A DNA stretch of 64,000 nucleotides from Methanobacteriota archaeon. GTDB taxonomy: Archaea; Halobacteriota; Methanosarcinia; Methanosarcinales; Methanosarcinaceae. Made by a program: the position numbers and the translations under genes. The notes beneath the pieces are model-generated. The model saw only the letters and a list, made by a program, of their open reading frames with translations, made no database searches and was not told the DNA's origin. Positions 39,443 through 43,516 of the stretch are shown piece by piece (positions within the stretch are counted from its first letter, which is position 1; each line of letters opens with the position of its first letter). Location of the stretch: assembly GCA_016841265.1 (NCBI GenBank), contig JAENZL010000002.1:1891-65890 (forward strand), given 5' to 3'.

Positions 39443-41191
39443 ATGGAGAATATTAAGGAGCTCAGGAACAACCTGGAAACATTCAGAAGGAAGGGGGTAA
39501 TTGACAGCAGCAGTTATGCGGTCATGTTGAATAACCTCAAAGGGCTGGAGGTAGGGCTTGAATCCGTGGAAAAGACGTCTTCGGTCTATAAGGAAAGTTC
39601 GGAAAAGTTGCTGAAGGAAAAAATTCTCCTGGTACAGGAAAAAGATGTCCTGTCAATCCAGGTGGCAAAACTTTCCAGGGAGAAATTGGAACTCGAATCA
39701 AGGCTTTCGGTGCTCCAGAAGACCCGGCCTGCCTTATCGCCGACAAACCTCGTGAGCACTTTCAAAACTTCACTTGAAGAAATGGACCGGGGGCTCAAAA
39801 AGGCACCTTCAGGGACAAAGTACAGTGTCAGCAGTATGAACGTAACCCTGAAGACCAATCTTGCCCTGGAAGGGGACGAACTGAGGTTCCAGATGCCCAA
39901 AGCCGATGACATCATCAGCCCGGAAAACCTCAGCATCATAGAGTTCTCTGTAAAGGCGCTTCCTCAAAAGCCGGACCTTGCCTCTTACGGGGAAGTCCCG
40001 GACCTTGTTGGTCTCTCAAAAGAAGCCGCCGAAGGCAAACTCCTGGAAGCAGGTTTCAAGCCAGGGGAAATCCTGGAAAAGGACAGCAGTACCCCGGAGG
40101 GCACGGTCATCGCCCAGATCCCTTCAGCCGGATCCCTGGCAGAACCCGGGGCTGCAGTGGACCTCATCATCTCCCGAATCTCTTCTCTGAAGGTCCCGAA
40201 CCTGCTAGGGCTTGAGCTTGAAAGCGCAAAGCAGGTCCTGGATAAGTTCGGGCTTAAGCTCGGCGGGGTCAGGGGGCAGCCCTCGGATACAAAACCCGGG
40301 ATCATCCTGGCCCAGAGCCTGAAACCTGGCTCGGAAGCCGAAGTGGATGCCAAAATCTTTCTGATGGTCTCGACCGAAATGAAAAAAGAGGTGTCTGAGG
40401 GCGTCCTGTCTGACAGGCTGAAGCGGCCTCAAATAACCCCTCTGAAAGTTTCTTCCGATGTCTCTGCCAAAGTTTCAACCGAAACTTCCGTTAGGGCTCC
40501 GGCCGAAACTCCATCTAAAATTTCAACGGAAACCCCTGCCAGGGTTTCCACAGAGCCTTCGGTGGTGGCTCCCGGGCCTGTGCCTGAACCCCAAGCTCCG
40601 GTTGTCGAGCAGCCTGAAGTCGAGAAACCTGAAGGTCCGGTAGCTCCGAAAACTGAGGTCAAAACAGTCCCCCGGGTTACCGGCATTCCTTTTGAAAAAG
40701 CTGCTGAGATCCTGAAAAAGGAAGGAGTAAACATTGGCAAGGTTTCGGAGATTGTTTCCAGGATTTCTCCCGGAACAGTGCTCAACCAGAGTCCCAGGGC
40801 TGGTTCTATCGCCAACCCGCGAATTCCTGTCGACCTTGTGGTTGCAAAGTCTGCACCGGTGCGTGAGCCCGAACCCAAAGCTCCGGTTGTCGAGAAGCCT
40901 GAAGTCAAGACACCTGAAGTTTCGGAACTTCCGAAAACCGAGGTTAAAAAGGTTCCCCGCGTTGTCGGCCTTCCTCTTGAAAAGGCTACTGCGACTCTGG
41001 AACGTGCGGGCATAAAAGTCGGGGAGGTTTCCGAAATATATTCTCGTTCCGCTCCCGGAACCGTACTCAACCAGAGTCCCGGAGCCGGGTCTATCGCCAA
41101 CCCGCGAATTCCTGTCGACCTCTCGGTTTCGAAAGAGAGGCCTGACCTGAATCCTCGCGTATCAAGCATAACCCGCAGGATAAGCCGCTGA
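39443..41191 (+). CDS. Coiled-coil protein with 4 PASTA repeats
   Basis: A 582-residue paralogue of the 1484-aa protein at 33316. The N-terminal helix (ELRNNLETFRRKGVIDSSSY), a single coiled-coil repeat instead of three, the same beta domain (YSVSSMNVTLKTNLALEG; FQMPKADDII), two PASTA units, a long Thr/Pro/Val-rich linker, then two more PASTA units with a Pro-rich spacer, and a basic tail (SSITRRISR). The equivalent of the cysteine in the long protein's repeats is serine here (AGSIAN). No signal peptide. AGGAGG precedes ATG 39443. It is likely to be the ancestral-length form, from which the long one expanded. Confidence 0.86.
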   Translation: MENIKELRNNLETFRRKGVIDSSSYAVMLNNLKGLEVGLESVEKTSSVYKESSEKLLKEKILLVQEKDVLSIQVAKLSREKLELESRLSVLQKTRPALSPTNLVSTFKTSLEEMDRGLKKAPSGTKYSVSSMNVTLKTNLALEGDELRFQMPKADDIISPENLSIIEFSVKALPQKPDLASYGEVPDLVGLSKEAAEGKLLEAGFKPGEILEKDSSTPEGTVIAQIPSAGSLAEPGAAVDLIISRISSLKVPNLLGLELESAKQVLDKFGLKLGGVRGQPSDTKPGIILAQSLKPGSEAEVDAKIFLMVSTEMKKEVSEGVLSDRLKRPQITPLKVSSDVSAKVSTETSVRAPAETPSKISTETPARVSTEPSVVAPGPVPEPQAPVVEQPEVEKPEGPVAPKTEVKTVPRVTGIPFEKAAEILKKEGVNIGKVSEIVSRISPGTVLNQSPRAGSIANPRIPVDLVVAKSAPVREPEPKAPVVEKPEVKTPEVSELPKTEVKKVPRVVGLPLEKATATLERAGIKVGEVSEIYSRSAPGTVLNQSPGAGSIANPRIPVDLSVSKERPDLNPRVSSITRRISR

Positions 41192-41235
41192 AAATTACTG
41201 AGTTTTAAAAAGCCCTGATCTCCAGGTTTTTGCCC

Positions 41236-41499
41236 ATGTCAGTAGAATCTCATATTATCAGAATTTCGGATAACGCCAGCCAGCCTCAGATTCAGGAAAT
41301 CCTGAAAACGGTTATCGGGGTTGGTGGGAGGATCGAAATGGTCGCCGGCAAGATCATCATTGCAAGCTTTGATAGTGCCTACGCCGGGGTAATAAAGAAA
41401 AAGAAAGGTGTGGCACTTGTAGGTGGGGTCAATTTCAGGGGCAGAAAAATCCGCAAAGTCATAAAAAGGGTTTCCAGGGAGGAACAGCCGGACTCATAA
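41236..41499 (+). CDS. Small protein, possible inhibitor-I9-like fold (87 aa)
   Basis: An 87-residue protein ending the PASTA cluster, 44 bp after the shorter PASTA gene. SHIIRISDNASQPQIQEIL, then GGRIEMVAGKIIIASFDSAY and VALVGGVNFRG give a beta-alpha-beta pattern like the ferredoxin-like fold of peptidase-inhibitor I9 propeptides; this is a weak resemblance. The C-terminus is basic. No equivalent follows the long PASTA gene. The ATG at 41236 is preferred over TTG 41230. Confidence 0.6.
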   Translation: MSVESHIIRISDNASQPQIQEILKTVIGVGGRIEMVAGKIIIASFDSAYAGVIKKKKGVALVGGVNFRGRKIRKVIKRVSREEQPDS

Positions 41500-41647
41500 G
41501 CTTTTGAGGCGGGTCCGGGTTTTTTCTTTTCTTTTGTATTTTTTTCCTGCAATATGTGGTCTTATATAATACTATGCTGCATTCTGATCGACTCATTCTG
41601 ATCAAATTACATTTGTTCCGGTCGGTTCAATGTGGTCAATTCAATGT

Positions 41648-41689
41648 GGTTTGCTTCTTTTGGTTTGCTTCTTTTGGTTTGCTTCTTTC
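41648..41689. repeat. 3 x 14-bp tandem repeat
   Basis: Three units of GGTTTGCTTCTTTT (last ending C), preceded by two copies of TTCAATGTGGT (about 41627-41650). It lies between the PASTA cluster and the ribosomal operon promoter. No function is evident; the surrounding 41500-41876 holds no gene. Confidence 0.8.
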
Positions 41690-41876
41690 GGCTGAATTAT
41701 AGTCGTTTGTGGTTGCATGTGGTTAAATTCTTGTATTCTAATTCTTCCGGTCAAGTTCGATCCGGGTCTGATGTCTCCCGTCTTTTTCATCTTTCCAACC
41801 GGGTTGAAAATTATTTTATGTTTATCACGATGGGTGCTGATTATTTTTCCTTATCTATTCGTTTTTCTGCAAAGGA

Positions 41877-41885
41877 TTTATATAC
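41877..41885 (+). promoter_or_regulatory. TATA box of the ribosomal superoperon
   Basis: TTTATATAC with an upstream AAAGG (BRE-like) is the best archaeal promoter in the window. Transcription is expected to start about 25 bp further on, near 41910, which places about 590 nt of leader before rpl3. No other convincing TATA box lies between here and 42503. Confidence 0.7.
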
Positions 41886-41928
41886 AAGATGTGATATCTT
41901 AGGGCAAAGTACATCCGACATGTGATGT

Positions 41929-42490
41929 TTCAGGCACTTAGGGTGCTTGAAATCAGTGTTTTAACTGATCAATGTGATGCTTTAACACTTACATCCCGGA
42001 TACGTCCGGGGGATACGAGTCACCTGCTGTTGATTATGGTAGGTGCTCGGCAGTGAAGATAATCCAGTGAGAAACGTCGGATCAACATGAGTGTCAAAGG
42101 GCCAATGCTTTGAAACGCCCGCTTTTGGCGCCTTAATGGCGCCCAAAATCGCACGAAAATGTTTATGTTTTCGGTGAGTCGCGTTTAGTAGAGACTGAAA
42201 TGTTTCAATTCAGGGCTCAAATCACCTGGATTTGGGTCTGTTAGGGAATTATATGCAGTTCTCCCATCAATGCTGCCTTCTGAAGTAGCTGGCAGGAGGG
42301 GAATTGGAACTATCAGATGCCTGAAGGGATAAGGTGCCAAAGGGCGTATAGCTCTGGCCTGCTCGAGGCTTTCTGGCCAGGCAGGTCTGGAAAATAATTC
42401 TCTGACAGCGTTCGGAAATAATCCGGGACTTATGATTTTGTCACTCAGGTTGTGCCGACCGGAGGGACTGGTATTTCTATTAAAACATAA
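41929..42490 (+). ncRNA. Structured leader or independent ncRNA before rpl3
   Basis: A string of hairpins with no credible open frame: TTCAGGCAC/GTGCTTGAA (41929-41951), ATCAGT/ACTGAT (41952-41969), CCCGGA-TACG-TCCGGG (41995-42010), CACCTGC/GTAGGTG (42021-42045), a long TTTTGGCGCC/GGCGCCCAAAA stem (42123-42148), CAAATC/GATTTG (about 42214-42230) and CTGCC/GGCAG with a GCCTG/CAGGC stem further on. I looked for the RNase P RNA core GAGGAAAGTC and for an SRP RNA helix 8 and found neither. It may be a long regulatory 5' UTR or a separate RNA ending at the 42123-42148 stem. Confidence 0.5.
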
Positions 42491-42502
42491 CGGAGTAGAA
42501 AT

Positions 42503-43516
42503 ATGGCAAATGTACACCGACCAAATCGAGGTTCTCTCGCATTCAGCCCACGTAAAAGGGCCAAGAGCCACATCCCAAGGTTCAGGTCATGGCCGGAAGC
42601 CGCAGGTGAACCAAGGCTGCAGGGCTTTGCCGGCTACAAGGTGGGTATGACCCACGTTATCATGGTTGATGACGTAAAGAACAGTTTGACTGAAGGCATG
42701 GAGATCTCCGTTCCGGTCACTGTTCTCGAAACTCCTGCCATCAGGGTGGCCGCCATCAGGGCTTACGGGAATGACAGCTTTGGTGAAATCGCAATTGCGG
42801 AAGCCTGGACTGCGGAACTTGACCCTGAACTTGAAAGGCGGATGCCAATGCCTGATACGGGAAACACCGATGAATCCCTTGAAAAAATCAGCAAACTGAT
42901 CGAAGAAGGCAAAGTTTCCGATCTCAGGGCCATCACCTACACTCTTCCGAAGAGCCTGACCGGTGTCCCCAAAAAGAAGCCGGACATCATGGAAACGGGA
43001 ATCACCGCAAAGGACATTCCCACCAAGTTCGAGTTCGGAAAGTCCATTCTGGGTACTCTTGTAAGCGTTACCGACGTGTTCCGGAACGGGACCATTATTG
43101 ATACGGCTGCGATTACAACCGGAAAGGGAACCCAGGGTCCTGTAAAGCGCTGGGGTATCCAGTTGCAGAAGGGTAAGCACTCCCGTCAGGGCAGTCTCCG
43201 GCAAGTCGGAACCCTCGGGCCTTTCAATCCGTCCCGCGTCTCCTGGCGTGTGCCGCAGATGGGTCAGATGGGTTACCACCAGAGGACTGAGTTCAACAAG
43301 CGCATCCTGAAGATCGGAACCGACGGCGAGGAAATTACTCCCGAAGGCGGTTTCCTTAACTACGGGCTGGTCCGCGGGGACTATGTGCTTATCAAGGGCA
43401 GCGTGCCCGGGCCTTCCAAGAGGCTGATCAGGTTAAGAGACCCGGTCAGAGCAAAGAAAACCGGCCTTGGCGAACCTCAGATCCTTCACATTAGCAGGGA
43501 GTCCAAGCAGGGGTGA
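42503..43516 (+). CDS. rpl3: 50S ribosomal protein L3
   Basis: A 337-residue L3 (uL3), an early-assembly protein near the peptidyl-transferase centre. [11 protein letters not shown]-like N-terminus, then [14 protein letters not shown] and the conserved [17 protein letters not shown] and [17 protein letters not shown] loop that approaches the active site. Length fits archaeal L3. First gene of the superoperon; GGAG lies 8 bp before ATG 42503. Six bp separate it from rpl4. Confidence 0.97.

Follow-up and report, generated by a model that had tools for sequence, protein, structure and literature searches.

The L3-L4-L23-L2 ribosomal operon in the window (the whole stretch of 64,000 nucleotides that was analysed) starts with rpl3 at position 42503 and is preceded by a leader of ~600 nt, counted from the TATA box to the L3 start, with a structured core at 42066-42180 upstream of the operon on the same strand. 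The genome belongs to a genus next to Methanosarcina, represented here by 4 genomes, and we aligned 30 leaders from this genus, Methanosarcina, and one further genus, from the TATA region to the L3 start codon. The TATA box that a sequence-only reading of this DNA had placed at 41877 (41877-41884, TTTATATA, preceded by GCAAAGGA) is kept near-invariantly across all 30 leaders, and conservation sets in sharply at the promoter, in agreement with that reading. Judged from the TATA spacing, the transcript would start at ~41901-41908. Within the leader, a near-invariant block spans ~42064-42120. In Methanolobus psychrophilus, ribosomal mRNAs are described as usually carrying long leaders, and the largest operon, which comprises 23 genes, is ribosomal and may be the L3 operon, as having a single mapped start (PMC5378194).

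Upstream of the leader, positions 39443-41191 encode a protein of 582 amino acids whose only Pfam matches are four PASTA domains, followed at 41230-41499 by an 89-amino acid basic protein with no Pfam match. Just 5′ of the promoter (41630-41690) lie tandem-like repeats, TTCAATGTGG and then TTTGGTTTGCTTCT.

Table 1. Coordinates of the rpl3 leader elements in the window and the evidence for each
Feature	Position	Strand	Evidence
BRE/TATA promoter element	41869..41884	+	sequence; conserved in 30-leader alignment
5′ hairpin Ha, 10 pairs	41928..41952	+	95.6% of cells paired; 2 pairs changed on both sides
Hairpin Hb (CCCGGA/UCCGGG)	41995..42010	+	91.7% paired; 2 pairs changed on both sides
Outer long-range helix, 5′ strand CCAG (partner 42468-42471)	42064..42067	+	100% paired, invariant
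Core, homologous to the non-coding leaders of other Methanosarcinaceae and to the methyltransferase-embedded RF03135-type element	42066..42180	+	model R1
Long-range helix, 5′ strand (partner 42437-42459)	42076..42098	+	94.1% of cells paired
P3 GGGC/GCCC hairpin, invariant loop	42099..42120	+	invariant in 30 leaders; counterparts in A3 and RF03135
P4 hairpin	42123..42148	+	97% paired; 3 pairs changed on both sides
Hairpin Hd (CGAAAA/UUUUCG)	42154..42173	+	99.3% paired; changes one-sided (wobble) only
3′-domain hairpin Hg	42336..42358	+	95.4% paired; 3 pairs changed on both sides
3′-domain hairpin Hh	42359..42385	+	CTGC/GCAG invariant; inner pairs 86.7%
Long-range helix, 3′ strand	42437..42459	+	30-leader alignment; single-sequence fold; window pair count
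Outer long-range helix, 3′ strand CUGG	42468..42471	+	20 nt before ribosome-binding site
GGAG ribosome-binding site of rpl3	42492..42495	+	sequence; invariant tail GGAGUAGAAAU
rpl3 (L3), first gene of ribosomal operon	42503..43516	+	PF00297, E 3.5e-85

The single-sequence fold of 41902-42502 has an energy of −223.5 kcal/mol, compared with −182.0 ± 6.5 for 20 shuffles (z = −6.4). Across the 30 leaders, the 74 pairs of 10 helices are formed in 95.7% of cells, as against 30-48% when the partners are slid by 1-3 columns. Changes on both sides of a pair occur in 11 pairs and 29 cells, compared with 5.8 and 9.2 in shuffled alignments (0/500); P3 and large parts of the long-range helix vary too little for covariation to show. 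Of the open reading frames of at least 15 codons, even the best-kept one, of 16 codons, has both its start and its stop intact in no more than 16 of the 30 leaders, and a small leader peptide was dropped as a candidate for lack of an ORF conserved across them. These data bear out the sequence-only reading, which had described a stem-rich leader with no credible frame and proposed a covariance analysis of it.

The core consists, in order, of CCAG, an internal loop (GUGAGAAA), the segment GUCGG-AU-CAACAUGAGUG-U-CAAA, the P3 GGGC/GCCC hairpin, and the P4 hairpin. Two or more 5′ hairpins precede it, and its 3′ partner strands, CACUC..GUUG.GCCGAC and CUGG, lie at 42437-42471, pairing with the core across ~350 nt and ending 20 nt short of the L3 ribosome-binding site. 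The minimum-energy fold recovers the helix 42076-42098/42437-42459 unaided; in the window, 19 of its 20 pairs are formed, or 23 of 24 when CCAG/CUGG is included. Its sole two-sided change is that of pair 42089/42446 from G-C to A-U in 4 leaders, and 10 of its pairs vary one-sidedly, some by wobble. A further invariant pairing, CAAAG/CUUUG, a possible alternative fold without variation among the leaders, would form a pseudoknot with P3. In Methanosarcina, a near-identical repeat array of variable copy number (~ATCAGGTTACTGAATACTGAAGTTTCAA; L012:1083-1851, L023:1492-2240, and others; columns 360-530 of alignment A4) sits between Hd and the 3′ domain; it is absent from the window's genus.

Most of the leader is thus bracketed by one long helix, which might act like the processing stalks of pre-rRNA, as the target of an RNA-processing nuclease that sets mRNA stability with no ribosomal-protein ligand; a core-to-start-codon distance that differs among lineages would suit such a role. 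We consider this unlikely, as the long-range helix is confined to Methanosarcina and its close relatives and the part shared more widely is predicted to be a compact junction, which would resemble a binding site more than a stalk. A non-coding RNA that acts in trans, independent of rpl3 and simply located before it, would account for a promoter of its own, the high degree of structure, and the very conserved core. The sequence-only reading had envisaged such an RNA, ending at the 42123-42148 stem. That stem is real (P4), but it is internal, with conserved structure running to 42471, and an independent RNA ending there finds no support: 42437-42471 is the pairing partner of the core, and the interval from that strand to the L3 start leaves no space for a promoter. 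Because, in addition, the element sits just upstream of L3 in every genome read and is carried in other lineages in the mRNA of the gene adjoining L3, a trans-acting RNA of any extent seems quite improbable.

RNase P RNA and SRP RNA (RF00373 and RF01857), neither of which the sequence-only reading had found in this segment, are indeed encoded elsewhere in the genome, on contigs C53 and C47, and an Rfam scan of the window, which that reading had also proposed, returned no match to any family. The core segments GAAAAAGUCGG/CGGCUUAC bear a passing likeness to the conserved regions CR-I/CR-V of RNase P, which was dropped: the GGCUUAC side is confined to ANME-3-like leaders, and on the RNase P locus the core model R1 described below scores no more than 5.6 bits (E 9.7).

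Other Methanosarcinaceae have a shorter leader upstream of L3 with a related core. The alignment of these leaders supports P2-P3-P4, and P2b and P4 show compensatory changes; 91.5% of cells are paired, compared with 38-44% for slid partners, and two-sided changes occupy 46 cells as against 19.9 in shuffles (0/500). All parts of a three-way junction, P2a-P2b/P3/P4, are supported there. In the window, P3 and P4 are present, and the P2 strand is paired with 42437-42459 instead. From these 25 non-coding leaders, and from nothing else, we built the covariance model R1, which matches the window at 42066-42180 (L001:1767-1881) with 32.7 bits and E 7.5e-4, and also matches Methanimicrococcus, Methanoperedenaceae, and some Methanomicrobiales.

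R1 links the window to RF03135, the L4-Archaeoglobi leader, which the main text of its description reports for Archaeoglobi only, as a borderline candidate, and does not mention in connection with a methyltransferase (Eckert and Weinberg 2020, PMC7247131). Of 393 genomes from the phylum, 223 contain RF03135. The family matches methyltransferase coding sequences at the place where R1 does, and it also matches non-coding Methanomicrobiales leaders. The matches listed include no Methanosarcinaceae genome, and in the window RF03135 itself gives no match even at E 5. Because its curated cut-off of 34.5 bits is not reached, we do not file the window leader as a member; comparison through R1 nonetheless identifies it as a diverged homologue. 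The two are alike in their position before the L3-L4 operon, in a GGGC/GCCC-type hairpin, which in RF03135 is part of a three-way junction, and in that R1 and RF03135 matches coincide in coding sequences and leaders. They differ in that RF03135 has 85 nt, whereas the window leader extends over ~600 nt, has its P2 partner rewired to the long-range strand, and has no surrounding ORF.

In many families, the gene directly before L3 encodes a SPOUT methyltransferase (PF02598), as the sequence-only reading had remarked. That remark proved to be the key, because the RNA core is homologous to a structure in that gene. R1 matches 10 loci inside the methyltransferase coding sequence, at a homologous position and nowhere else in those loci; in one example, the codons for GSDKSAW and NVRIFSR read as GGAUCUGAC...GUCAGAAUCUUUUCGCGA. 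That a model built from non-coding leaders matches both argues firmly for shared descent of the window core and the embedded element. The 30 best RF03135 loci, in each of which the methyltransferase immediately precedes L3, likewise have the RNA within the coding sequence.

Such pairing could be a by-product of protein conservation, in which case the coding and non-coding elements would not be one functional RNA, and that of P3 does follow in part from Trp-Val and Ser/Arg-Pro codons. However, synonymous codon shuffling of 22 methyltransferase genes adjoining L3 strips about a third of the pairs (16.9 → 11.6 of 19; p ≤ 0.02 for each gene, the p-values not being independent among these related genes), sliding the partners leaves 4.9-8.3 pairs, and the structure is kept in lineages without the ORF. 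The haloarchaeal genes show an excess that is weak when taken alone (11.7 vs 9.4 of 15 pairs, mean z 1.7, in a weak test with approximate model positions). The excess is limited to genes adjoining L3. In family f4, where the methyltransferase lies away from L3, pairs stay near the shuffled level (9.3 vs 8.1), and the OB-region motif of the protein is VHENGSWVDIGSKRSA in place of GSD..AWVDIG..SP; relocated copies thus lack the excess. We therefore regard a protein by-product as very unlikely, and codon shuffling together with the non-coding lineages rules out that the RF03135 matches are a pure protein signal.

The window genome lacks PF02598, as do all the Methanosarcinaceae whose genomes were searched. 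In several lineages, including that of the window, the ORF is absent and the RNA is retained. On a quick L3 protein tree of 75 loci, which tallies state changes and not their direction, the most parsimonious history has 5 switches between the coding and the non-coding state, 2 of them forced by well-supported branches; families f26 and f28 each hold both states. Given how widespread the methyltransferase is across the phylum, loss of the ORF is the probable direction. In four Methanomicrobiales loci with a broken ORF (L205, L206, L207, and L222), methyltransferase fragments of ~20-60 codons flank the RNA. These decayed fragments and the clear homology to the lost coding sequence are what a functionless pseudogene remnant in a leader of tolerated length would leave, but the near-invariance of the core across the whole genus group beside diverged flanks, the compensatory changes, and the retention of the RNA through several separate ORF losses make this explanation scarcely credible.

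Control of the ribosomal operon in cis is suggested by several features together: the position, the persistence without the protein, the lack of an ORF, and the pairing near the ribosome-binding site. We conclude that this is probably a cis-acting ribosomal-protein leader of the L3-L4-L23-L2 operon, an RF03135 homologue that was once embedded in a coding sequence, was kept after loss of the ORF, and was enlarged in Methanosarcina and its close relatives. Of the ribosomal-protein-binding autoregulatory RNA proposed by the sequence-only reading, the leader part is upheld, by position, conservation, covariation, and RF03135 homology. The promoter at 41877 would transcribe the leader as the 5′ part of the operon mRNA, a protein encoded by the operon and in excess over rRNA would bind the junction, and the bound protein would stabilise the fold and lower operon output. 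L4 is our best guess for this ligand, made tentatively; Rfam predicts it by analogy with bacteria, and it should not be read as a result. As no resemblance to 23S rRNA beyond chance was found by BLAST or by R1 (7 bits, E 4.8), rRNA mimicry supports no ligand. In Methanosarcina and its close relatives, the long-range helix would set the base of the leader 20 nt before the L3 ribosome-binding site, which makes translation initiation or mRNA stability the likeliest controlled step here; since the core-to-start-codon distance varies elsewhere, transcription attenuation may be a further one. Against this explanation count family f4, which manages with a short L3 leader that lacks the element, the missing RF03135 match in the window, and the strong conservation of P3 and of the long-range helix, the latter with its single two-sided change.

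With less assurance, we incline to a wider account in which a regulatory RNA within the coding sequence of one gene controls the next operon, repeatedly outlived the protein encoded there, became an ordinary leader, and was greatly enlarged in Methanosarcina, so that coding sequence would have turned into regulatory RNA directly. To judge from the texts searched, three points are new: the location of the element inside the methyltransferase coding sequence, its survival after ORF loss, and its enlargement in Methanosarcina and its close relatives.

The bacterial S10 operon, which begins S10-L3-L4-L23-L2, likewise has a leader in front, with L4 as its regulator; the likeness to the window leader, whose ligand is putative, concerns the working only. 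Archaeal S15 and eL15 leaders are, like the window leader, ribosomal leaders predicted by covariation (Eckert and Weinberg 2020); they belong to other operons, and some resemble rRNA sites, unlike the window leader as far as tested. Few cis-regulatory RNAs are known in archaea. The borderline RF03135 entry now gains independent support from lineages without protein constraint, and in most genomes examined the element of this type lies within a coding sequence. Methanosarcina and Haloferax are both genetically tractable, and regulation of the main archaeal ribosomal operon can now be put to the test in them. Loss of the ORF with retention of the RNA provides natural replicates, and the family f4 loci (L125-L130, L139-L144, and L185-L197) serve as a natural control for how the RNA constrains the protein sequence.
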